This document shows, piece by piece, positions 208-18,484 of a stretch of DNA of 19,059 nt. Numbering within the stretch: position 1 is the stretch's first letter; each line of letters begins with the position of its first letter. Source of the DNA: a bacterium (lineage in GTDB: Bacteria > CG2-30-53-67 > CG2-30-70-394); assembly GCA_024278555.1 (NCBI GenBank), contig JAJRSX010000037.1:1-19059 (forward strand). Reading direction: 5' to 3'. Below the pieces are notes generated by a model that worked only from the letters and a program-made list of their open reading frames with translations, searched no databases and was not told the DNA's origin. A program made the position numbers and the translations under genes.

Positions 208-253
208 GCGTTGTGTTTCCGTGGCCTTCCGTGGATTCCGTGGCTGGTTCCCA
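208..253. repeat. Single arm of CACGGAA-family repeat
   Basis: Three copies of TTCCGTGG-type words (TTTCCGTGG, CTTCCGTGG, ATTCCGTGG, then CTGG) are spaced 9-10 bp apart. This matches the right arm of the complete palindrome at 1126-1294. No matching left arm is seen in the window, so it is a solo or broken arm just after the direct-repeat cluster. The rest of the gap to the hpt start (254-366) holds nothing I can name. Confidence 0.7.
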
Positions 254-897: not shown

Positions 898-914
898 GCG
901 GCAATAACAGCTCG

Positions 915-947
915 CCACGGGGGACACGGGGAGGCGTGAGGGGCAAG
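915..947. repeat. Single arm of CACGGGG-family repeat
   Basis: CCACGGGGGACACGGGG followed by a G-rich stretch ending in GGGGCAAG. This is the left-arm form of the complete palindrome at 7127-7274, and related arms lie at 3332-3362 and 11507-11540. No complementary right arm is nearby. It sits 18 bp after the hpt stop codon. Confidence 0.7.
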
Positions 948-1125: not shown

Positions 1126-1294
1126 TTAGCCACGGAATCCACGGAAGGGCACGGAAGGAGGGAGAGAGCGCGGCGGCGGGGGAAAAAAACGAAGTGGCGC
1201 CGACCGTGTTTCGAGCAGGAACGGGGTCCGGGCCGCTCGTTCAACCCAACGGGAGACCCCCACTTCCGTGCCCTTCCGTGGGTTCCGTGGCTAA
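1126..1294. repeat. Complete MITE-like palindrome, CACGGAA family
   Basis: This 169-bp element is bounded by 32-bp terminal inverted repeats. The left arm 1126-1157 starts TTAGCCACGGAATCCACGG; the reverse complement of the right arm 1263-1294 differs from it at only one base by my count. Each arm holds three CACGGAA words (1131, 1140 and 1150 in the left arm). The interior is non-coding. It is recognisably similar, roughly three quarters identical, to 3070-3143. It lies between two converging genes, so it could also act as a bidirectional terminator. No ORF of its own is visible, so any mobilisation would need an enzyme from elsewhere. Confidence 0.85.
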
Positions 1295-1351
1295 AAAGCC
1301 GCCTTCCAGGCCGAGCCGCAGGCCGGCGAACCCCGTGGGTAAGCGGTGCGG

Positions 1352-2326
1352 CTACTGCTTCCCGTACCACTCGACGAAGCGGCGGATCCCCTCGCGCATG
1401 GAGACCTTGGGCTGGTAGCCAAGGAGCCGCTTGGCCTTGGAGACGTCCGCAAAGGTGCGCGGTACGTCGCCGGGCTGCATGGGGAGCTGGTCGATGATCG
1501 GCTCCCTGCCCACCGCCTGGCCGATCATGTCGATGAGCTCGCGCAGGGTGGTCACCTCGTGCTCGCCGAGGTTGATGATCTCGTAGCCGAGCGGCCGGTC
1601 GATGGCGCGGATGAAGCCGTCTACGAGGTCGTCGATGTAGGTGTAGTCGCGCGAGGAGGTGCCGTCACCGAACATCTTGATCGGCCGGCCCTCGAGGATG
1701 GCGCGCAGGAAGAGGTGGATCGCCATCTCCGGCCGCTGGCGCGGACCGTAGACGGTGAAGGGGCGGAGGCAGGTGATATTGAGGCCGAAGAGGTGGTGGT
1801 AGGTGTGGGCGATGAGCTCACCCGCCCGCTTGGTGGCGGCATACGGGGAGATCGGGTAGTTCACCGGGTCGTCCTCGGCAAACGGCACCTTCTCGTTCTC
1901 GCCGTAGACCGACGACGACGAGATAAAGACGAAGTTCGGGACCTCGTGGTGGCGTGCCACCTCGAAGAGGTTGTTCGACCCCTCCACGTTCACCTTCTGG
2001 TAGAGGAGGGGCTCGACGATCGACGGCCGTACCCCGGCGCGGGCGGCGATGTGGATCACCACGTCGACCTGCTCCTCGTCGAAAAGGCGCTGCAAGAGCG
2101 GCAGGTCACAGATGTCACCCTCCACCAGGCGGTACCGATCGGAGGTGAGGGCCGCCTCGATGTTGCGCCGCTTGATCGCCGGGTCGTAGAAGTCGTTGAA
2201 GTCGTCGATGCACACAACCCGGTCGCCGCGCTCGAGGAGCCGATCGGTGAGGGTGGAGCCGATAAAGCCGGCACCGCCGGTAACAAAGATGGTCTTCGGA
2301 CCTTCGGGGAGGGGACGGCTGGCCAT
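1352..2326 (-). CDS. UDP-glucuronate 4-epimerase-like SDR enzyme
   Basis: This is an extended short-chain dehydrogenase/reductase of the nucleotide-sugar epimerase class. It probably interconverts UDP-glucuronate and UDP-galacturonate, or a related sugar, for surface polysaccharide in the cytosol. From ATG 2326 (GGAG five bases upstream) it has 324 residues. It shows the NAD-binding GGAGFIG (17-23), the acidic DDF after strand 2 (41-43), the SSSSVYG segment (137-142), catalytic YxxxK as Y162-K166 in SPYAATK, and LRPFTVYGPRQRPEMA (187-202), typical of the UDP-glucuronate epimerase group. A longer in-frame start at 2389 exists, but its extra N-terminus looks non-native. It is divergent from the brnT-like gene. 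Family confidence is high; exact substrate is moderate. Confidence 0.9.
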   Translation of the reverse strand: MASRPLPEGPKTIFVTGGAGFIGSTLTDRLLERGDRVVCIDDFNDFYDPAIKRRNIEAALTSDRYRLVEGDICDLPLLQRLFDEEQVDVVIHIAARAGVRPSIVEPLLYQKVNVEGSNNLFEVARHHEVPNFVFISSSSVYGENEKVPFAEDDPVNYPISPYAATKRAGELIAHTYHHLFGLNITCLRPFTVYGPRQRPEMAIHLFLRAILEGRPIKMFGDGTSSRDYTYIDDLVDGFIRAIDRPLGYEIINLGEHEVTTLRELIDMIGQAVGREPIIDQLPMQPGDVPRTFADVSKAKRLLGYQPKVSMREGIRRFVEWYGKQ

Positions 2327-2464
2327 GGGGGCTCCGGGGATGGGGGCAAAAAAGGAACGCGCAGCGGGCCGGGTTCTGAACCATCGCAACCACCAGCGTC
2401 AAGGTCGCCTTCGCGGGTAAATCGCCGAGGAACAGGGTGAGCTTTGAAGGTTGGCTCTGGATTC

Positions 2465-2491
2465 CAGTGTATACTACGATAACATACACTG
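2465..2491. promoter_or_regulatory. Operator-like palindrome and promoter of the brnT-brnA pair
   Basis: A perfect 8-bp inverted repeat, CAGTGTAT (2465-2472) and ATACACTG (2484-2491), is separated by 11 bp and ends directly at the toxin ATG (2492). A TATACT box (2470-2475) overlaps the left half-site. Candidate -35 hexamers TTGAAG (2444) and TTGGCT (2451) are poorly spaced, so the exact promoter is unsure. BrnTA modules are known to be repressed by their antitoxin, and this placement fits a repressor covering the promoter. The short or absent leader is notable. Confidence 0.6.
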
Positions 2492-2794
2492 ATGATCGAC
2501 CTCCAACGGATCGCGGGCTTTGACTGGGATACGGGCAACGAACGGAAAAATGCCGACAGCCACCAGGTTTCCCAAGCTGAAGCGGAGCAGCTTTTCTTTC
2601 ACGAACCGCTGTTGATCACCGTGGACATGTCACACAGTCGGCAAGAGACGAGGTACCACGCACTTGGCCAATCAGCCGCGGGCCGGTTGCTCCATGCCAC
2701 ATTCACCCTTCGTTTCGAAGACACAAAAATCCGCATCATCTCCACGCGGGACATGTCTCGCAGAGAGAGGAGGCTCTATGAGCAGGCGTCGTAA
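2492..2794 (+). CDS. brnT: BrnT-family toxin
   Basis: This 100-residue protein matches the BrnT family of RelE-fold ribonuclease toxins, which cleave RNA in the cytosol and are neutralised by a DNA-binding BrnA antitoxin. The family pattern is visible: an N-terminal FDWDTGNERKNADSHQVS segment (10-27) where the family has FxWDxxKxxxNxxKHGVS, the EAEQLFF block (30-36), and the C-terminal RIISTRDMSRRERRLYE (81-97) that carries conserved Arg residues. The usual Lys-His of the KHGVS motif appears as SHQVS, so the His is retained. Its last 17 bp overlap the next gene, which indicates translational coupling. ATG 2492 is the first start after the promoter palindrome. Confidence 0.88.
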   Translation: MIDLQRIAGFDWDTGNERKNADSHQVSQAEAEQLFFHEPLLITVDMSHSRQETRYHALGQSAAGRLLHATFTLRFEDTKIRIISTRDMSRRERRLYEQAS

Positions 2795-3050
2795 ACCCAT
2801 CCCGACGTTCAAAAGCGAGGCGGAAGAGCGGCTCTTCTGGGAGAGCCACGACTCCGCGGACTACCTCGACTGGAGCCAGGCGCAGGGCATGACACTGCCC
2901 AACCTGAAGCCGTCGACCAAATCGATCTCGATTCGTCTGCCCGTCGACCTACTGGAACGAATCAAGGTCGAGGCCAACCGCCGCGACGTCCCCTACCAGT
3001 CGCTCATCAAGATCTGGCTCAGTGAGCAGATCGGCAAGAAGGCTGCCTGA
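2778..3050 (+). CDS. brnA: BrnA/CopG-type antitoxin
   Basis: This 90-residue antitoxin pairs with the preceding toxin and probably represses the operon. The N-terminal part has the toxin-contact region (EAEERLFWESHDSADYLDW, 14-32). The C-terminal half (about 48-84) is a ribbon-helix-helix domain with the strand SISIRLP followed by helices LLERIKVEANRRD and PYQSLIKIWLSEQI, as in CopG-type antitoxins. The ATG at 2778 is preceded by a strong ribosome-binding site, AGAGGAGG, and lies inside the end of the toxin gene in another frame. Order toxin-antitoxin with a short overlap is standard for BrnTA. Confidence 0.9.
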   Translation: MSRRRKPIPTFKSEAEERLFWESHDSADYLDWSQAQGMTLPNLKPSTKSISIRLPVDLLERIKVEANRRDVPYQSLIKIWLSEQIGKKAA

Positions 3051-3059
3051 TCTCTCCTT

Positions 3060-3178
3060 GGGGAAGAGAAGGAGATGGCGCCTGCCGTGCTTCAAGCAAC
3101 AACGGGGTCAGGGTCGCTCGCTTAGCCCAAAGGACACCCCCTACTTCCGTGCCTTTCCGTGGATTCCGTGGCTGAAAA
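3060..3178. repeat. Truncated copy of the CACGGAA-family element
   Basis: From about 3070 to 3173 this resembles the interior and right arm of the complete element at 1126-1294. Shared blocks include TGGCGCC, ACGGGGTC, GCTCG and the arm CTTCCGTGCC..TTCCGTGG (3144-3173). The left arm is missing; in its place the end of brnA lies only 20 bp away. A small inverted repeat CTCCTT/AAGGAG (3056-3075) sits at the broken end. This suggests a 5'-truncated relic, or insertion next to the toxin-antitoxin module. Confidence 0.7.
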
Positions 3179-3244
3179 TCGCCTTCCGGGCTCACCTCGG
3201 CATTGCGTTGCACCACCGGTGACGCTTGTCCCCCGACCATCCAC

Positions 3245-3362
3245 GTATCTGCGTCCCCGCGCCTCCGCGCGAGCATCACCTTCACCCAGATGCAGGAGCC
3301 GCCCATGCGGCAATTGCTCTACGGAACTCTCTTGCCCCCAAGCGCCCCCGTGTCCCCCGTGG
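3245..3362. repeat. Further repeat arms: CTGCGTCCCCGCGCC and CACGGGG-family right arm
   Basis: Two more repeat relics fill the convergent gap. Around 3249-3275 there is a GCG-word stretch related to that at 1006-1060, on the opposite strand. At 3332-3362, TTGCCCCCAAGCG then CCCCCGTGTCCCCCGTGG is the right-arm form of the palindrome at 7127-7274. It includes the conserved TTGCCCCC edge, which on the other strand is the GGGGGCAAG edge seen at 7148, 11529 and, in shorter form, 941. No gene is seen in 3051-3372. Confidence 0.6.
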
Positions 3363-3372
3363 TCAAGCCGCC

Positions 3373-4074
3373 CTACGCCCCCCCTGCCAGGTAGTCGCGC
3401 AGCGCCGCGGCCACCTCGCCCTCGGGCCGCGCCTCCAGGCCGAAGTGCTGGAGGATGGCGATGGTGGCACCGCGGCCGGGCTCGCGCGGCATGCCGTGGT
3501 GGGCGGTGAAGCGCAGGAGGTTGTGGAGGGTGTGGAGGAGGAGGTGGCTCCGGTCGAGGTCGTCGACGTCGAAGGCAGCCTCGTACCAGACCACCAGGGA
3601 AGTTGTAGCGACACGACGCAACTCCGGGGTATCGATCGCCACGGGGGCGAAGCGGGTGGTCTCGCCGTACCAATGGCCGCCCGGCAGGGCAGGCTCGCGC
3701 CGCCGGACGAGAGTCGACTCCACCGACCATGCCGTCTCCCGCGTCTCCACCAGGTCGCCCAGCCAGTCGCGCAGGAGGGTCTGACGCAGAAAGCGCGCCG
3801 CCGCCAACTCCTCCGCCTCGAACTTGTTCAGCTCCGAGACCGCCTTCTCCAGGGCCTCGCACAGGAGGCGGGCGTGGTGGCCGCCGGTGGCGATGAGGAG
3901 GCGCTCGAAGTAGGCAAAGAAGGCGATTGCCAGGGGGCGGCCGTGGAGCGTCCCCTCCACCCGCCAGCCGTCGCCGTCGAGGGTCAGGCGTGCCGTCCCC
4001 ACCTCCGCCGGTGTCGGAGTGAGGCGGCGGATGAGGCGGCGCAGGGCGCCGCGTGGTTGATCGGTCTTACTCAT
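3373..4074 (-). CDS. Conserved-looking protein of unknown function
   Basis: The frame encodes 233 residues from ATG 4074, with a good ribosome-binding site (GGAGG, five bases upstream). I do not recognise a family. It is soluble, with no signal peptide or membrane span. A basic N-terminus (GALRRLIRRLTP, 9-20) leads into a possible beta-rich region around 26-60 (LTLDGDGWRVEGTLHGRPLAIAF). Predicted helices rich in Ala, Leu and Glu then alternate with an aromatic segment near HWYGETTRF (about 134-142). Codon use (G/C in third position) matches its neighbours, so it is probably a real gene. It is divergently transcribed from the HAD phosphatase across 71 bp, so co-regulation is possible but unproved. 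Confidence 0.75.
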   Translation of the reverse strand: MSKTDQPRGALRRLIRRLTPTPAEVGTARLTLDGDGWRVEGTLHGRPLAIAFFAYFERLLIATGGHHARLLCEALEKAVSELNKFEAEELAAARFLRQTLLRDWLGDLVETRETAWSVESTLVRRREPALPGGHWYGETTRFAPVAIDTPELRRVATTSLVVWYEAAFDVDDLDRSHLLLHTLHNLLRFTAHHGMPREPGRGATIAILQHFGLEARPEGEVAAALRDYLAGGA

Positions 4075-4145
4075 GGCATCCTCCGCCTCCGCAGGGGCGG
4101 TAGCTTATCCGCCCCGACGCCACCGCGCACCGCACCACCGCATCC

Positions 4146-4772
4146 ATGGCCCACGCCCTCCTCCTCTGGGACCTCGGTAACGTCCTCGTCCGCGTCGATC
4201 CGGTGCGCGCCTGCCTCGCCGCCACCGGCGGCGACCGGGCCGCCGCCGAGGCGCTGGTCGAGGCGGTGGTGGACTCGCCCGCCCACGACGCCTTCGAGGC
4301 GGGGCGGATCGACGCGCCGGGCTTCCACGCCGCCCTGGTGGAGGCGGGGCTCATCGACCTCGACCTCGATGGCTTCTGCCACCTGTGGACCGACATGTTC
4401 ACCCTCGACGAGACGGCCCTCGCGCTTTTGCAGGCGGCGGCGCGCCGCCGTCGCTGCTGGCTCCTCTCCAACACCGACCCCCTCCACTACCCGTGGATCA
4501 CCGGCCGCTGGCCGATCGAGCCGTCGCTGGCCGGCGCCACCCTCTCCTTCCGCGTGGGCGCGCGAAAGCCGGACGCCGCCATCTACCGGGCCGCCCTGGA
4601 GGCCGCCGGGGTGGCGCCGGGAGAGGCCGCCTTCATCGACGACCGGCCGGCCAACGTCGCCGCTGCCCGCGCCCTGGGGATCGACGCGGTCGTCTACACC
4701 GGTGGGGCAAAGCTGAAGCAGTGGCTGCAGGCGGCCGGCGACCTCACCGAACAAGGGCAGGATGGTCGCTGA
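4146..4772 (+). CDS. HAD-superfamily hydrolase, YihX-like phosphatase
   Basis: This 208-residue haloacid dehalogenase-like enzyme probably hydrolyses a small phosphate ester in the cytosol. Motif I is WDLGNVLV with nucleophile D9. The position two residues on, usually an Asp acting as general acid, is G11, as in the DLGNV sub-group that includes E. coli YihX (alpha-glucose-1-phosphate phosphatase). Motif II is LLSNTD (about 110-115), motif III is GARKPDAAIY (about 139-148, catalytic Lys), and motif IV is FIDDRPANV (about 165-173). An all-helical cap lies between motifs I and II (about 18-90), typical of subclass I. Start ATG 4146 has no clear ribosome-binding site. Substrate is not deducible. 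Confidence 0.88.
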   Translation: MAHALLLWDLGNVLVRVDPVRACLAATGGDRAAAEALVEAVVDSPAHDAFEAGRIDAPGFHAALVEAGLIDLDLDGFCHLWTDMFTLDETALALLQAAARRRRCWLLSNTDPLHYPWITGRWPIEPSLAGATLSFRVGARKPDAAIYRAALEAAGVAPGEAAFIDDRPANVAAARALGIDAVVYTGGAKLKQWLQAAGDLTEQGQDGR

Positions 4773-4833
4773 TCGGAGGTTGTCAGAGACCCTGGCGAAC
4801 AAACCGAGACTACGGTGAAGATTGGTGGCAAGA

Positions 4834-4965
4834 GACTAGGGGCTAGGGATTAGGGGAGGACGGCCCTTCGGGCCGGATACGTATGCCGATGGGACCTCAC
4901 TACAAAATGGATCGCCGGCCGCACAGCGGCCAACCAGCCCTGGTCCCTAATCCCTAGTCCCGAAC
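4834..4965. repeat. Palindromic element with CTAGGGATTAGGG arms
   Basis: The left arm GGGGCTAGGGATTAGGG (4839-4855) and the right arm CCCTAATCCCTAGTCCC (4945-4961) are inverted copies matching at 16 of 17 positions. A further CTAGGGG lies at 4836. The interior carries a tight hairpin CGGCCC-TTC-GGGCCG (4861-4875) and a second GGCCG/CGGCC stem near 4917-4931. It fills the gap between the HAD gene and fmt and could act as a terminator or be a relic of a small mobile repeat. No gene is seen in 4773-4989. Confidence 0.75.
4861..4875. terminator. Hairpin downstream of the HAD gene, possible terminator
   Basis: A 6-bp all G/C stem (CGGCCC..GGGCCG) closes a 3-base loop 89 bp after the HAD stop codon. 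There is no following T-run, so intrinsic termination is uncertain. The hairpin lies inside the larger palindromic element and may simply belong to it. Confidence 0.35.
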
Positions 4966-4989
4966 CCCCGCGAGCACAGCGAGCCCTCC

Positions 4990-5937
4990 ATGCGCACGAT
5001 CTACATGGGTACCCCCGACTTCGCCGTCCCGTCTCTCGACGCCCTGGTCGAGGCGGGGATCGACGTCCCCCTGGTGGTCACACGGCCGGACAAGCCGGCG
5101 GGCCGCGGGAAGCGGCTCCAGGCGCCGCCGGTGAAGCAGCGCGCCGAGGCCCTGGGGATCGAGGTCTTCCAGCCACGCACCCTCAAGGACGAGGCAGCCC
5201 AGGCGCGCCTGCGGGAGGTCGGGGCGGACGCCATGGCGGTGGTCGCCTTTGGTGCCATCCTCCCGAACGCGGTCCTGGAGATGACCCCCCTCGGGGCGGT
5301 GAACGTCCACGCCTCGCTCCTGCCGCGCTACCGCGGCAGCTCACCGATCAACTGGGTGATCGTCAACGGCGAGGGCGAGAGCGGGGTCACCACCATGTTC
5401 ATGGGCGAGGGGATCGACACCGGCGACATCCTCCTGCAGGAGCGCATCGCCCTCGACCCGCGGGAGACCGCCGCCACCCTCCACGACAAGCTCGCCGTCC
5501 TCGGCGGACCGCTCCTGGTGGAGACCCTGCGGCGGCTGGAGCGCGGCGACCTGACACCGACGCCGCAGGTGGAGGCGGACGCCCTCTACATCCCCAAGCT
5601 GACCCGCGAGGACGGCCGCCTCGACTGGAGCCGACCGGCCGAGGAGCTCGACCGCCGGATCCGCGGCTTCACCCCGTGGCCCGGCGCCTTCACCTTCCTC
5701 AAAGGCCACCGTCTCACCGTCCACGCCGCCCACCCGGTAGCGCAGCCCCCCGCCCAGGCGGCCGGTCAGATCGAGGCGGTGGAGGGCGGCGCGATGGTGG
5801 TGGCGTGCGGCGATGGCTGCCTGGCGATCACCGAGCTCCAGCCCGAGGGAAAACGGCGGATGGCGACGGACGCCTTTCTCCAGGGCCACCCGGTGGCGGT
5901 GGGCACCCCGCTGGGGGGGAGACCGCAGACGGACTAA
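4990..5937 (+). CDS. fmt: Methionyl-tRNA formyltransferase
   Basis: This 315-residue enzyme transfers a formyl group from 10-formyltetrahydrofolate to Met-tRNA(fMet) for translation initiation. The N-terminal catalytic domain (1 to about 205) shows MGTPDFAVPSL (6-16), N105 and H107 in NVHAS, the folate-binding SLLPRYRG (109-116) and D143 in GIDTGD. The Asn, His and Asp of the formyltransferase site are therefore all present. The C-terminal tRNA-binding OB-like domain begins near YIPKLTREDGRLDW (about 198) and runs to the end. Length is standard. It is not next to def or rsmB, its common partners: the upstream gene is a HAD enzyme and the downstream genes are of unknown function. ATG 4990 is the natural N-terminus. 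Confidence 0.96.
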   Translation: MRTIYMGTPDFAVPSLDALVEAGIDVPLVVTRPDKPAGRGKRLQAPPVKQRAEALGIEVFQPRTLKDEAAQARLREVGADAMAVVAFGAILPNAVLEMTPLGAVNVHASLLPRYRGSSPINWVIVNGEGESGVTTMFMGEGIDTGDILLQERIALDPRETAATLHDKLAVLGGPLLVETLRRLERGDLTPTPQVEADALYIPKLTREDGRLDWSRPAEELDRRIRGFTPWPGAFTFLKGHRLTVHAAHPVAQPPAQAAGQIEAVEGGAMVVACGDGCLAITELQPEGKRRMATDAFLQGHPVAVGTPLGGRPQTD

Positions 5938-6001
5938 TAACGACGGAGACGGTACACTTTTACCCAAAGGGAGGAGCCAACGTGAGGAAAGGAGAATCGA
6001 G

Positions 6002-6265
6002 ATGCCGTACACCTCACAGACGCTCATCAGCAAGATCCACCAGATGTACCCCACCATCCGCGACCACAACATCGAGGTGGTGGCGTGGCACGACCAGACC
6101 CAGGACACCTGGGTCATCACCCTGCAGAAGGGCGACCACACCCTGACCACCTACCTCGACGGCGCCGAAGCAGACCAGTGCATCGAGGGGGGCCGGTGCA
6201 TCTACCTCGGTCTCCACGTGGCCGAGTTCCTCGCCAACTTCGAGGACGAGCGGCTCGCCGCCTGA
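6002..6265 (+). CDS. Small conserved protein of unknown function
   Basis: The protein has 87 residues from ATG 6002, with a clear ribosome-binding site (AAAGGAG, seven bases upstream). It starts MPYTSQTLISKIHQMYPTI and contains WVITLQKGDHTLTTYLDGAEADQCIEGGRCIYLGLHVAEFLANFE in two adjoining blocks (about 37-81). Two Cys (about residues 60 and 65) flank an EGGR turn. I recall similar short proteins, with a KGxHxLTTxLxxxDAxxCxxGxxCVYLGxQIxxFxxNF pattern, in Desulfobacterota genomes. That is memory, not a search. No membrane segment or signal peptide is present. It is 64 bp after fmt, so possibly co-transcribed. Function is unknown. Confidence 0.85.
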   Translation: MPYTSQTLISKIHQMYPTIRDHNIEVVAWHDQTQDTWVITLQKGDHTLTTYLDGAEADQCIEGGRCIYLGLHVAEFLANFEDERLAA

Positions 6266-6369
6266 CCCTCTGCGGGCCGACCGGCCGAGGCAAAACCACG
6301 CAGGCCAGGAAGAGCGCGAAGGGGAGCAGCGGAAATAGCCCCGAGCGTTCCGCCGTCCTTCGCACCGCT

Positions 6370-6457
6370 GGAACACGAAACCACGAAAGGGGGAAGGCAC
6401 GAAAAACAACCGATTGACTTCTTTCGTGCTTTGAACTTTTCGTGCTTTCGTGTTCCC
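6370..6457. repeat. Complete palindrome, CACGAAA family
   Basis: Two arms of about 35 bp (6370-6404 and 6421-6457) form a near-complete hairpin with a 16-base loop. The left arm has CACGAAA at 6374, 6382 and 6398. The right arm carries the matching TTTCGTG words. The arms agree except in the stretch between the second and third words. As RNA this would be a strong hairpin about 100 bases after the stop of the 87-residue gene, so it could terminate transcription. It is AT-richer than the genome and lies in a 363-bp gap (6266-6628) where no gene is supported. Confidence 0.85.
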
Positions 6458-6628
6458 ACTCCCTCGAGGTCTCGGGAACATCGACTTTCTCGCCAGCCAT
6501 GATTTCCGCCGCTCCTCGAAGGGAAAGAGGGATTGCCCGAGCGCGGGCGCTCCGTACCGGCAGCGCGTGGTCCAATCCTCTCTACGCCGCTCCTTGTCCT
6601 CGCCGGGCCGCTCGCCGATCCTCCGGGT

Positions 6629-7117
6629 GTGCTCCGCCTCCCCACCACCGTCGCAATCCTCGTTGCCGTGCTCCTCTGCGCCACGCCCGCGGCGGCGGGT
6701 GACACGGGGTCGACCCTCAACACCCTGATCGAGGCGTCGCGCCTGCCGCGCTTTGCCCAGCCGGTGTGGGACCGGGCGGACCGCGCCGCCGAGAAGACGA
6801 CGATCAACGCCCTCACCACCCAGATCCCCGCACCCCTGCGACCGCCGGCGCGGATGATCCTCAAAGAGACCCTCGCCGGCCGCGTCCACCTCGCCCCCCA
6901 CTTCACCACCACCGAGATCGGCGGCCGGTCGATCCCCACCCTCGCCGACCTCGACCGCCTCCAGCGCGGCGATTTCTTCCGCTGGCAGCGCCTCCTCGGC
7001 CCCCTGCGCCTGCCGATCCCCGACCTCCCCCTGGTGGACATCGACATCCCCCTGATCGACAAGGTCGGCCACATCGGCCCGATCCCCATCGTGGTGCCGG
7101 AGATCTTGGTGCGGTAA
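6629..7117 (+). CDS. Secreted protein of unknown function
   Basis: I prefer the GTG start at 6629, which gives 162 residues beginning with a plain signal peptide: a hydrophobic core TTVAILVAVLLCATPAAA and a predicted cleavage after AAA (about residue 23). A longer frame from 6533 exists but would bury the signal peptide behind a Pro/Arg-rich leader. The mature part is soluble, with a helical first half (TLIEASRLPRFAQPVWDRAD, AEKTTINALTTQI). Its C-terminal 40 residues are rich in Pro, Ile, Leu and Asp (LPIPDLPLVDIDIPLID, then GPIPIVVPEIL), which suggests an extended interaction surface. No family is recognised. Codon use fits the genome. The start codon is uncertain because no good ribosome-binding site is visible. 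Confidence 0.7.
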   Translation: MLRLPTTVAILVAVLLCATPAAAGDTGSTLNTLIEASRLPRFAQPVWDRADRAAEKTTINALTTQIPAPLRPPARMILKETLAGRVHLAPHFTTTEIGGRSIPTLADLDRLQRGDFFRWQRLLGPLRLPIPDLPLVDIDIPLIDKVGHIGPIPIVVPEILVR

Positions 7118-7126
7118 ACCGCCGGA

Positions 7127-7274
7127 CCACGGGGACACGGGGGACGAGGGGGGCAAGAAAGCATTGGTGCCTCGGACACGCGAAGGAGGCATCTGCATTT
7201 CTCCCGGCAGTTGAGGACCGAGTAAGGGGACGACTGGCTGCCGGCCCCCCTCGCGTCCCCCGTGTCCCCCGTGG
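7127..7274. repeat. Complete palindrome, CACGGGG family
   Basis: The left arm 7127-7154 (CCACGGGGACACGGGGGACG then AGGGGGGC) and the right arm 7244-7274 (GCCCCCCTCGCG then TCCCCCGTGTCCCCCGTGG) are inverted copies. They differ only by a 1-base and a 2-base length change. CACGGGG words start at 7128 and 7136. The 148-bp element is non-coding and nearly fills the gap between the secreted-protein gene and the CopD-like gene (7118-7352). Single-arm relatives lie at 915, 3332 and 11507. Confidence 0.85.
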
Positions 7275-11506: not shown

Positions 11507-11540
11507 CCACGGGGACACCGGAGACCCGGGGGCAAGAGAG
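11507..11540. repeat. Single arm of CACGGGG-family repeat
   Basis: CCACGGGGACACCGGAGACC then CGGGGGCAAGAGAG is the left-arm form of the family at 7127, with the same conserved GGGGGCAAG edge. A looser similar word, CACCGAGGACACCCGACC, follows at about 11565. No right arm is nearby. It lies in the uvrB/RND divergent gap (11402-11805), where no gene is supported. Confidence 0.6.
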
Positions 11541-11736
11541 CCATACGGCCCCGTTGGCGCCGGTCACCGAGGACACCCGACCGGTGGGGGGTGTACCCTG
11601 CGCTTGCCACCGCCACGGGCAGCGCCGGAAGACGGCTCCCACGGTCGAGGGCTGATGCAGCGCCGGCTCGCAGACAGAGGCGACGAGAACCGCGCGTGGC
11701 GCGGACGGCACCTCGCCTGCGGGCCATCCCCGTTGC

Positions 11737-11779
11737 CACCACAAGGCGCATTCGTGTTCATCCGTATCCATTTGTGGTG
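11737..11779. repeat. Small palindrome with ATTCGTGTTCATCCGTATCC interior
   Basis: CACCACAA (11737-11744) and TTGTGGTG (11772-11779) are perfect inverted repeats 27 bp apart. The interior reads as spaced words TTCGTG, TCCGTA and CCATTTGTG. On the other strand this is the CACAAATGGATACGGATGAACACGAAT pattern split into words, another member of the CACG-word style. It ends 26 bp before the RND exporter ATG, so it may shape the leader of that mRNA. Confidence 0.6.
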
Positions 11780-11805
11780 AGGTGACGCCCCCGCCCGCCT
11801 CCTCC

Positions 11806-14100: not shown

Positions 14101-14191
14101 GGGCGGTCGGTCGCGATCGCGGCCCACCGATCGCCCGGCGAATGGCCTCCACCTCCACTTCATCCAGCCCGGGGGCTGACCTCTCCCACCT

Positions 14192-14220
14192 CCCTACATC
14201 CCTATTTCCCTACATCCCTC
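14192..14220. repeat. Repeat arm CCCTACATCCCT, twice
   Basis: CCCTACATCCCT occurs at 14192-14203 and 14208-14219, 16 bp apart, with CCCTATTTCCC across the middle. The opposite-strand reading, AGGGATGTAGGG, is similar in style to the AGGGAGATGGGGGGATAGGG at 14084-14103, which includes the RND stop codon. The two may be decayed arms of one element spanning the convergent gap 14101-14227. No gene lies there. Confidence 0.55.
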
Positions 14221-14227
14221 ATCTGCA

Positions 14228-15889: not shown

Positions 15890-17746
15890 CTAGAAGGCAA
15901 CTCCGAAGAAGGCGCGCCACTCCGGAGCACCGATCCCCTTGTCGAGACCCCAGCCGAGGCCGCCGGTGAGGGAGAGCCTGCCGACCTTCAGGCCACGCCC
16001 ACCCACCAGGAGCTCCACCGGCGACGACTCCTCGTCGCCCCACAGGTGCGAGGTGGTGGTGCGGCTGTTGACCTCCGCGACCACCTCCGCGTCGCCGGCG
16101 ACCGATGCCACGACCCCGAGCCCCACGTCGACAAAGTCGGCGGTGGAGCCATTGCCGACACCGTCCACCGCCCGCCAGCCGGCGTTGGCAATCCACCGCA
16201 CCCCCTCGGTGACCGCACCGTCCATCACCAGACGGGCGCCATAGGAGAAGGTTCCGAGACCAAGAAGCTCGTCCTTATCCCCGGTGGGCAGGCCCACGAT
16301 GGGGACCAGGGCCAACCCTACCGCCTCTTTGGAGGGGTCCACGAGGCGGATCTTCGCCTCGATCTCCACGTCACCGAGGCGCCACGCGTCGACCCGCTCG
16401 ATGCCGGTGAGGCTCTTGCCGTCGATCAGATAATGGACCGGCAGGCGTACCCCCACATCGACGCCGTCCACCACGCCATAGGCGGCGGTGAGTTCCAGGG
16501 AGGCGAGGTCGATGAGCCGATCGTTCACGAAGTTGCCCCGCTCGTCCCCCACCACCACCGGATCGCGGGCGTAGGAGAGGAGGCCGCCGAAGGCCGCCGC
16601 GCCCGGGGCGAGGGGATGGCTGTCGTAAAGGGTGAAGGTGCCGTTGCCGTCCACCAGCGGACGCAGCCGCTGTGCCTCGATCCCCTCGGTCGCCCGTGCG
16701 CCGGAGGCGCCCAACAGAATGACGAGTGCGATCGCGAGCCAACCGCGACGACGGGCGACCACCGCCACCCCCAGGGGGAGGAGCAGGAAGGCGAGGTCGA
16801 AGAGGGAGCCTCCCGCCGCCCCGGGTACGGCCTGGCAGCCGTTGCCCTGGAGGCGGCGGGTGCGCGTCGTGGGGGCCGGAGCCGGAGGCGCCGGGGGAAG
16901 CACCACCGAGGTGGTCACCGCGGCGGTGTCGTTGGCGGCCACCGGATCGTTGGGGGTGCTCACCGTTGCCGTGTTGGCGGCATCACTGGCGGTGGCGTCG
17001 CTGTCGACGGTGGCGGTAACGGTCCGAGTCGTGGTCGCGCCCTCGGCGAGGGTGGCGATCGCCGGCCAGGTCACCGTCTGGCCGCTCGCAACCCCGCTGT
17101 CGCTCGCCGAGGCGAAGGTGAGGCCGGCGGGGAGCGCGTCGCTGAGAGCGATGCTGCGCGCGGTGCCGTGGCCGTTGTTAGTCACGGTCACGGTGTAGGC
17201 CACCGTGTCGCCGGGCTCTGCCGTCTCCACGTCCGCGACCACGGCCACCGCCACGTCGGGGGTGGAGTGGCCGATGACGAGCTGGCGGGCACCGCTGCCG
17301 GTCACCGTGGCCCCATCCACGGTGACCTCCATGGTCAGGGGGTCACCGTCAAAGGCCGGGGTGGCGAAGGCCGCCGCGGCGACGACCGAAGCACCTTCCA
17401 CGGCGGCTGAACCGCCACCGTCCGTACGGAAGAGGCGCACCTTACCGGGGGAGTTGTCGCTGGAGACCAGCCCCAGATCGCCCTCGTCCGTGAGATCGAT
17501 GCCGTAGCCGGAGCTCATGAGGCTGTCGCCGAAGCTCCCCCCGTCGGTGACCGTCGGCGGGTCCCCGGCGGTGATGTCGCTGATCTGCAGCCCCGAGGAG
17601 CCGAAGATGTGCGCCCCGTCCGGGGTGATCACCCCCCCGCGGTTGACCATCAAAAAGGTGGTGGAGGAGGCCGTGTCGTCGCTGGTGCGGACCACGTTGT
17701 TCGAGGCGTAGACCCAGGCGCCGTCGGGGGAGATCACCAACTCACG
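15890..17746 (-). CDS. C-terminal part of the interrupted propeller gene: DUF11, sorting signal, second signal peptide, outer-membrane barrel
   Basis: This continues the frame of the upstream gene directly after its TAG (17749-17747), with no frame change. Counting from the TTG at 17740: 1-110 finish the beta-propeller (VISPDGAWVYAS, VITPDGAHIFGS), and 163-275 form a DUF11 repeat (VTVTNNGHGTARSIALSDAL). A Pro-rich linker (280-292) leads to GC (C302), a membrane segment (312-328) and RRR (330-332), like MYXO/JDVT-type C-terminal sorting signals. A second hydrophobic stretch LAIALVILLGASGARA (335-350) then resembles a signal peptide. Residues 351-616 match the N-terminal barrel common in OmpA-family proteins of Myxococcota-like bacteria (QRLRPLVDGNGTFTL, VGVRLPVHYL), ending in a C-terminal Phe (FFGVAF) as outer-membrane barrels do. 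No convincing independent start is seen. Confidence 0.8.
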   Translation of the reverse strand, partial: RELVISPDGAWVYASNNVVRTSDDTASSTTFLMVNRGGVITPDGAHIFGSSGLQISDITAGDPPTVTDGGSFGDSLMSSGYGIDLTDEGDLGLVSSDNSPGKVRLFRTDGGGSAAVEGASVVAAAAFATPAFDGDPLTMEVTVDGATVTGSGARQLVIGHSTPDVAVAVVADVETAEPGDTVAYTVTVTNNGHGTARSIALSDALPAGLTFASASDSGVASGQTVTWPAIATLAEGATTTRTVTATVDSDATASDAANTATVSTPNDPVAANDTAAVTTSVVLPPAPPAPAPTTRTRRLQGNGCQAVPGAAGGSLFDLAFLLLPLGVAVVARRRGWLAIALVILLGASGARATEGIEAQRLRPLVDGNGTFTLYDSHPLAPGAAAFGGLLSYARDPVVVGDERGNFVNDRLIDLASLELTAAYGVVDGVDVGVRLPVHYLIDGKSLTGIERVDAWRLGDVEIEAKIRLVDPSKEAVGLALVPIVGLPTGDKDELLGLGTFSYGARLVMDGAVTEGVRWIANAGWRAVDGVGNGSTADFVDVGLGVVASVAGDAEVVAEVNSRTTTSHLWGDEESSPVELLVGGRGLKVGRLSLTGGLGWGLDKGIGAPEWRAFFGVAF

Positions 17747-18370
17747 CTATGCATTGCCCACCTCCCCGATGAAGGTGAGGCTCGTCGTGTCGAAGGCGAA
17801 GAGGCCGTTGCGGCCGGCCACGTAGACCTTGCCCCCGTCGGGGGTGACGGCGATCCCCTCCGGGGTGCCGGAGAGGTTGGTGAGGATCTCGGCGACCACC
17901 GAGTTGTCCGTCAGGTCTACCACCACGACTCCACCATCGTTGTCGCCGTCGGAGCCGCCGTTCTTCATCGCCACGTAGAGACGACCGCCGTCGGGGCTCA
18001 CCACCACGTCGTACGGCTCGTCGGTGGTCACCGCGGCTACATCGAGGTCGATGGTCGCCGCCACCTGCAGGGTGGCGGTGTCGATCACCGAGATCGTCCC
18101 CACGGTACCGCCGAAGCGGTTGGCCACGTAGACCCGACCGTTGTCCGGGGCGACGTCGATGCCCCGGGGCTCGGAGTCGACGTCGATCTGCGCCACCCAC
18201 CCGGGGGCATCCATGTCGAAGACCCACACCTGGTCGGAGTCGGTCGCCGAGACGTAGGCGAGGCGATCGCCCGGGCTCGGGGTGATATTGGCGGGCGGGG
18301 TTTGGGCCGCTACCGGGGCCGCCGCCAAGAGGAGTAACAACCAACACGCGCAGGAGCGAAAGAACTTCAT
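17747..18370 (-). CDS. N-terminal part of the interrupted gene: exported YVTN-type beta-propeller
   Basis: From ATG 18370, with an excellent ribosome-binding site (GGGAGGTG, about six bases upstream), the frame runs 207 residues to an in-frame TAG. A signal peptide (MKFFRSCACWLLLLLAAAPVAA, in two parts, cleavage near 22) is followed by YVTN-type blades with the repeat xPxGIxVxPDxGxVYVA: PRGIDVAPDNGRVYVA (68-83), PYDVVVSPDGGRLYVA (119-134) and PEGIAVTPDGGKVYVA (170-185). About four blades are complete. The remaining blades and all further domains lie after the stop codon, so the 207-residue product alone should not close a propeller. It is a nonsense-mutated gene, a readthrough gene or a sequencing error. 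Confidence 0.85.
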   Translation of the reverse strand: MKFFRSCACWLLLLLAAAPVAAQTPPANITPSPGDRLAYVSATDSDQVWVFDMDAPGWVAQIDVDSEPRGIDVAPDNGRVYVANRFGGTVGTISVIDTATLQVAATIDLDVAAVTTDEPYDVVVSPDGGRLYVAMKNGGSDGDNDGGVVVVDLTDNSVVAEILTNLSGTPEGIAVTPDGGKVYVAGRNGLFAFDTTSLTFIGEVGNA

Positions 18371-18484
18371 GAGAGCACCTCCCTTATTGTGGCCAGCGCA
18401 GCCGACCGGAAAAACCACACCACAGCACCCAATGGGGAAAGGGGCACGGTGGTCCATCACTATCACCGCAGGGTTCGGGTCACA

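Follow-up and report, generated by a model that had tools for sequence, protein, structure and literature searches.

Palindromes with Word-Repeat Arms in a CG2-30-70-394 Genome as Probable Gene-Less Relatives of a Small GxxExxY Nuclease Element

Palindromes of the Window and Their Word Class

The stretch of DNA under study (the window; 19,059 nt, contig JAJRSX010000037.1, here C6) belongs to a bacterial assembly of 3.06 Mb in 211 contigs (GCA_024278555.1, lineage CG2-30-53-67; CG2-30-70-394; the host genome, G000). Its intergenic regions contain three complete palindromes, located where the original prediction, made from the letters of the window alone, had placed them. The arms also follow the plan given there: in each, a single 7-base word, reading inward, is repeated two or three times at a spacing of 8–10 bp. 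The palindromes are examined here as probable relatives of a small element which carries a nuclease-like gene of the GxxExxY family (PF13366).

1126–1294, no strand: complete palindrome of CACGGAA words; arms of 37 nt matching at 92%, three words per arm, conserved loop of ~95 nt
6370–6457, no strand: complete palindrome of CACGAAA words; arms of 35 nt matching at 83%
7127–7274, no strand: complete palindrome of CACGGGG words; arms of ~23 nt matching at 91%

All copies in the window are intergenic, and their words, of the form CRCRRRR, point inward within inverted arms exactly as they do in the gene-bearing arms described below. Four bins of palindromic tandem-word pairs were counted in the window, and at least one such bin was found in 1 of 200 order-3 Markov sequences. 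An 893-kb sample of the host genome yielded 30 palindromic tandem-word clusters, all noncoding, and Markov sequence yielded none; chance is therefore ruled out. Contigs of this sample were partly picked for carrying CACGGAA words, so that its word densities are not genome averages and CACGGAA is over-represented in its counts. Tandem CRCRRRR words occupy 204 noncoding and 3 coding sites of the sample, although its coding DNA is 4.5 times larger. The noncoding sites include CACGGAA (104), CGCAAAG (20), CACAGAG (19), CACGAAG (18), CACGGGG (14), CACGAAA (12), and CGCAGAG (10). The words form one class, CRCRRRR, reading inward, and the confinement outside coding DNA first noticed in the window holds for the sample. 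The proposed preference for convergent and tandem gaps was only partly borne out: these gaps are occupied (1.44 and 1.19 elements per kb, respectively), but divergent ones are occupied too (0.80 per kb).

GxxExxY Genes between Inverted Word Arms

Words of this kind were expected to surround genes of the GxxExxY and four-helix-bundle families, and this expectation was put to the test. Tandem CACGAAG and CGCAGAG words were each found in 49 of 241 genomes; outside the host, bursts reached 53 and 97 copies, respectively, and the reversed controls gave mostly zero or one. In unrelated genomes, GxxExxY genes show inverted tandem-word arms on both sides, mostly within 100 bp.

A first set of 30 loci comprised the best matches to the hidden Markov model, and arms played no part in their choice. 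Their median inverted-repeat score was 20.5, versus 9.0 (maximum 14.5) in 109 shifted windows. A second set, collected separately, comprised 80 named loci; of 75 loci, 47 exceeded the 99th percentile of the scores in shifted windows (p=1e-16). The armed loci span about a dozen phyla, including Acidobacteria, Planctomycetes, Proteobacteria, Chloroflexota, Verrucomicrobia, Bacteroidetes, Armatimonadetes, Hydrogenedentota, Nitrospinota, KSB1, and Chlorobi. When 207 small genes from the host sample were scored in this way, the GxxExxY gene reached 31 and the next best 15. The association is also evident at the genome level, since PF13366 is present in 20 of 22 word-rich genomes outside the host class and in 36 of the remaining 211 (Fisher p=3e-12; odds ratio 49).

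The full element measures ~430–510 bp and its arms, with two or three tandem words at a period of 8–10 bp, have the consensus YACC-RC-RRRR; the arms examined begin with YACC or GGCC. The GxxExxY copies of the host carry CGCAGAG or CACAGAG arms. CACGGGG arms, the type of the palindrome at 7127–7274, surround a GxxExxY gene in a genome of the same class (G002, locus L237). In another genome (G036, locus L230), a CACGAAG palindrome lies just behind a possible start codon (3450–3560) and a further arm within apparent coding sequence (555–600); insertion into genes may occur.

The Encoded Protein

The two host copies match PF13366 with 145.8 and 142.7 bits (cut-off 22) and TIGR04256 with 150.2 and 145.1 bits (cut-off 35), well within the curated limits of the GxxExxY/PDDEXK_3 family, and the catalytic residues of PD-(D/E)XK nucleases are conserved. 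In an alignment of 30 proteins, G..E..Y, D67, E77xK79, and Q91 are invariant, and Y95 of the QxxxY motif is conserved in at least 90%.

The structural model is confident (pLDDT 95). A structural alignment with VIA-align placed SSO0001, a Cas4 protein, first (Z 9.4, root mean square deviation 4.7, 103 aligned residues); restriction-like nucleases, Cas4, and Holliday-junction resolvases ranked next. No relative was found by a sequence search of the PDB. The model supports a nuclease fold. Its D, ExK, and QxxxY motifs are those of the PD-(D/E)XK nucleases of the Cas4, RecB, and lambda-exonuclease type, which the protein also resembles in its predicted fold, but it differs in being a minimal single-domain protein with predicted nuclease activity and no sequence relative of solved structure.

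Pairing of the Arms and Their Relation to the Protein

Paired variation of left and right arms was found across loci, so that the original prediction was not refuted on this point. In 23 of the 43 armed loci, the locus's own right arm was the best or tied-best fit to its left arm, and own arms fitted better than those of other loci (permutation p=2e-4, the lower limit set by the number of permutations). Within the CACGGAA family alone, the paired variation of the linkers reached p 0.06–0.16 in only 10 copies. Arm similarity is correlated with protein similarity (Mantel r=0.32, p=0.0005).

The proposal that one family diversifies its arm words is thus supported, considering the single word class, the one orientation, the paired left and right variation, and the common gene-bearing form.

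Comparison with the Sister Species

Orthologous gaps were compared, as the original prediction had suggested, with a sister species of the same genus (G001, 79% nucleotide identity). None of the six gaps that could be compared contains, in the sister, the word element present in the host. For instance, the gap at L074:2729–3287 measures 508 bp in the host, where a CACAGAG element is nested within a CACGGAA element, and 32 bp in the sister, and a hairpin-plus-T terminator is kept in both. The absence of the element next to a retained terminator favors insertion and disfavors a terminator role.

Gene-bearing elements also differ between the two species. On contig C30 of the host, perfect arms of 31 bp (TCACCGCAGAGACGCAGAGGACGCAGAGGGA) enclose a complete GxxExxY gene, and the orthologous site of the sister (C125) holds a palindrome built from these words but no gene; loss of the gene from an element and gain of a gene by a palindrome would both fit this comparison. 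A CACAGAG-armed gene on host contig C116 has no such element at the orthologous site in the sister (C112); here an entire element was gained or lost.

It is very unlikely that the palindromes are selected host features, namely transcription terminators or stabilizers of RNA 3′ ends. They are strong intergenic inverted repeats and slightly denser in convergent gaps, as such a role would have it, but they lie in divergent gaps too, the sister lacks them in six of six gaps, and a separate intrinsic terminator is kept in both species at L074. No Rho-independent terminator (a GC stem followed by a T run) was recognized on the three window palindromes. On the gene strand of the gene-bearing elements, 54 G.U and 56 A.C mismatches were counted between the arms; as the two are equally frequent, there is no sign of selection for a sense-strand RNA hairpin. 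The suggestion of a selected role such as transcription ending therefore finds no support.

The CACGGAA Family

The palindrome at 1126–1294 belongs to a high-copy family of the host, and its loop is common to many copies. Exact CACGGAA word pairs number 177 genome-wide, and the reversed-pattern control gave 0, which confirms the predicted excess over background. Since the sister has only two pairs, genome G008 one, and a further 38 genomes none, the family is a lineage-specific burst.

Full copies measure ~160 bp between the outer words and have a conserved, asymmetric loop of ~95 nt. Short-loop copies of 68–70 bp and truncated copies occur as well. The outer flanks are also conserved and of two types, A and B, relative to which the loop is found in both orientations. 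Thus, the palindrome seen in the original prediction is real, but it is only the core of a longer repeat. Flank B also borders CGCAAAG, CGCAGAT, and CACAGAG words, so that words and flanks recombine as modules. The parts of the family found in the window, besides the complete palindrome, are as follows.

1105–1125, no strand: outer flank of type A, GCCCGGCAGGGAG, recurring outside many copies
1295–1315, no strand: outer flank of type B, AAAGCCGCCTTCCAGGCC, recurring outside many copies
3073–3171, no strand, words at 3145–3171: truncated element with half of the conserved loop and one arm; the loop resembles that of the copy at 1126–1294
217–245, minus strand: single CACGGAA arm

Similarly, the palindrome at 6370–6457 belongs to a longer repeat (>170 bp) whose flanks are conserved. 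These flanks recur around a near-identical copy at L050:14867, and in a diverged relative at L069:11420 the outer words of both arms read CACGAAG instead.

Two further explanations concern the word arms in general. The arms could bind a chromosome-organizing protein of the host that selects the near-helical word spacing, with the mobile gene exploiting these sites. The regular spacing of 8–10 bp, the single word class, and the high copy number would suit such a protein; the explanation is nevertheless highly improbable, as the prevailing word family is not the same in the two sister species (CACGGAA, 177 vs. 2), the distribution over genomes is patchy, and words match more within than between loci. 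Slippage during replication and template switching at palindromes are able to homogenize repeat words, and could do so within an element. That the arms arise by such mutation alone, with no element, is barely conceivable, since the same word class and inward orientation recur across phyla, one gene family is tightly flanked, and the loops and flanks of the CACGGAA family are conserved.

A Parallel Class with Four-Helix-Bundle Genes

Genes of the four-helix-bundle family TIGR02436 (S23/IVP; loci L196–L225) also have inverted word arms on both sides, with scores above 14.5 at 21 of 30 loci, versus 5 of 107 shifted windows (p=5e-13). Their words are heptamer-like, for instance GGTAAAG, AGTCAGG, and GGTTAAT.

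The intervening sequence of the 23S rRNA is a selfish element of ~430 nt with terminal inverted repeats of ~28 bp around an S23 open reading frame (ORF) and a patchy distribution (PMC4990558). It is alike in being a small single-ORF element with terminal inverted repeats, and the TIGR02436 genes are likewise word-armed. The GxxExxY elements differ in their gene and word class; no rRNA was detected in the 20 gene-bearing loci scanned, and excision from rRNA by RNase III is inapplicable to intergenic copies such as those of the window. No account of S23 ORFs outside rRNA was found in the open-access literature.

The short tandemly repeated repetitive (STRR) heptamers of cyanobacteria are described as tandem repeats and are not known to form the inverted ends of an element with a gene. 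As short tandem intergenic words, they resemble in a general way the heptamer arms of the window at 4839–4961 and 14180–14225.

Other Machinery and Known Repeat Systems

Repetitive extragenic palindromic (REP) elements and their RAYT or TIRYT tyrosine transposases form REPtrons and TIRtrons, in which the gene lies between inverted repeats (PMC3733652). They share with the present elements the small, high-copy intergenic palindromes, the gene-bearing form, and the gene-less relatives. The differences are the PD-(D/E)XK nuclease-like gene in place of an IS200-type tyrosine transposase and the tandem-word arms. REPs typically have a GTAG or CGTC tag at one end of a palindrome of 20–40 bp.

The palindromes could likewise be spread by other machinery, with the GxxExxY and four-helix-bundle genes as passengers; a Y1 tyrosine transposase could, for example, act on them in trans, which has been proposed for REPs. 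Four Y1_Tnp genes are present in the host, Y1_Tnp shows a weak association with word-bearing genomes (odds ratio 7.7 at five or more words), and the arm plan is common to two unrelated gene families. A Y1 transposase as the flanked gene was rejected, for the eight Y1 loci examined score no higher than 11.5 and none has matching word arms on its sides. The association with PF13366 is far stronger, the arms co-vary with the nuclease protein, and the word class changes with the gene carried. Spread by such machinery is hence regarded as unlikely.

Miniature inverted-repeat transposable elements (MITEs) are alike in being short, multicopy, and noncoding, with inverted ends, lineage-specific expansion, and gene-bearing relatives. 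The present elements differ in their tandem-word arms, in that no DDE transposase partner was identified, and in that no target-site duplication was found at the 32 gene-bearing loci on which this comparison is based.

Other Arms and Features of the Window

Of the single arms listed in the original prediction, four are clear (217–245, 912–932, 3140–3175, and 3340–3365) and the one at 11507 is degenerate. The looser relatives are of mixed kinds: CGCAGAG/CGCGAAG words at 1000–1066 and 3240–3275, TAGGG heptamers, and a CGAATG array.

912–932, plus strand: single CACGGGG arm
3340–3365, minus strand: single CACGGGG arm
11507–11535, plus strand: degenerate CACGGGG-like arm
1000–1066, no strand: flank motif CCTGGAAGGC amid CGCAGAG and CGCGAAG words
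4839–4961, no strand: palindrome of heptamer words (TAGGG), probably of the four-helix-bundle word class
14180–14225, minus strand: single arm of heptamer words (TAGGGA), probably of the same class
11735–11782, minus strand: array of CGAATG-type words, comparable to the array around a CACAGAG hairpin of the sister

In the latter case (L336:150–400), the hairpin is nested inside a larger palindrome of CGAATG-type words. A third palindrome family of the host, GGGGTCAGGCTTGCAAACTTGCAAGTTTG, is unlike the CRC words and has near-identical copies at L048:11345–11409, L050:19802–19867, and L092:4380–4444.

At the contig end (55–205), several copies of TAAGGTAAAGAACTGACCCTGAGTTCCCCTG resemble REP-type repeats associated with Y1 transposases, and a related hairpin, GGGGTCAGGTCTTTAC, is present in a gap of the sister. 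An ORF of 100 amino acids followed by a CopG antitoxin (PF12441) at 2492–3050 likely forms a toxin–antitoxin pair. The minus-strand ORFs 15890–17740 and 17747–18466 are in the same frame with one stop codon between them (17740–17749), and jointly look like one broken beta-propeller/DUF11 protein. An Rfam scan of the window gave only sub-threshold chance matches to miRNAs and snoRNAs.

A Proposed Small Mobile Nuclease Element and Its Probable Gene-Less Relatives

The palindromes of the window are probably gene-less, nonautonomous (MITE-like) relatives of a small mobile GxxExxY nuclease element. The observations behind this reading are the anatomy of the elements, the co-occurrence with the gene, the paired arms, the presence and absence in the sister species, and the one orthologous site with a gene-bearing and a gene-less form. 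The full element consists of an inward word arm, the small PD-(D/E)XK nuclease-like gene, and the same arm inverted. The words may be DNA sites recognized by the element's own nuclease, because arm and protein similarity are correlated, and their near-helical spacing would array the protein on one face of the DNA. Protein binding at such spacing was part of the original prediction, and the element's own nuclease would most plausibly be the binder. The nuclease would act on the arms as a duplex or an extruded hairpin, and repair or recombination would then copy the element elsewhere, with or without the gene. Gene-less families of the host, such as CACGGAA, would have multiplied since the host diverged from its sister species.

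Several points weigh against this interpretation. The weakest are the missing gene-bearing CACGGAA copy, the armless loci, and mobility itself, which is deduced from sequence comparison with no movement observed. None of the PF13366 loci of the host is a CACGGAA copy, and no gene-bearing relative with CACGGAA, CACGAAA, or CACGGGG arms was found in the host; neither were gene remnants in the noncoding copies of the 893-kb sample. About one-third of the GxxExxY loci have no detectable arms, and single arms and mosaics are common. PF13366 is missing from some word-rich genomes (G005, G007, G015, and G234), and no target-site duplication was seen outside the arms of the gene-bearing loci, where short matches were the same as in the control; the former would also suit movement by other machinery and the latter a movement of the HUH type. 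Foldseek matches of the protein were weak (best E 0.0055), led by SSO0001, alkaline exonuclease, and lambda exonuclease. The correlation of arms and protein fits co-evolution but could equally reflect simple co-inheritance or shared descent.

To our knowledge, word palindromes are widespread in environmental genomes and create spurious ORFs, and we know of no agreed origin for them. In the open-access literature, no description was found of a link to GxxExxY or four-helix-bundle genes, and the exact word pairs were not found in its relevant part. GxxExxY was used there in one paper only as a domain label near Cas4, and the family accessions appeared in an unrelated context. Measured against this literature, the link of word palindromes to the GxxExxY element is a new explanation. 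It may tentatively be proposed that an undescribed class of prokaryotic mobile elements exists, in which a Cas4/RecB-like nuclease gene lies between arms repeating its own recognition word, word and nuclease diversify together, and the S23/IVP elements with heptamer words form a parallel class.

The parallel suggests that S23-bearing intervening sequences of rRNA may belong to a wider word-armed class and not be an oddity of rRNA. The GxxExxY family, whose role has so far been unassigned, gains a candidate substrate in its own arms, and the repeats gain a candidate mover. If true, the proposed class together with its S23/IVP parallel would account for a large part of those word-repeat palindromes in environmental genomes that have so far lacked an explanation.

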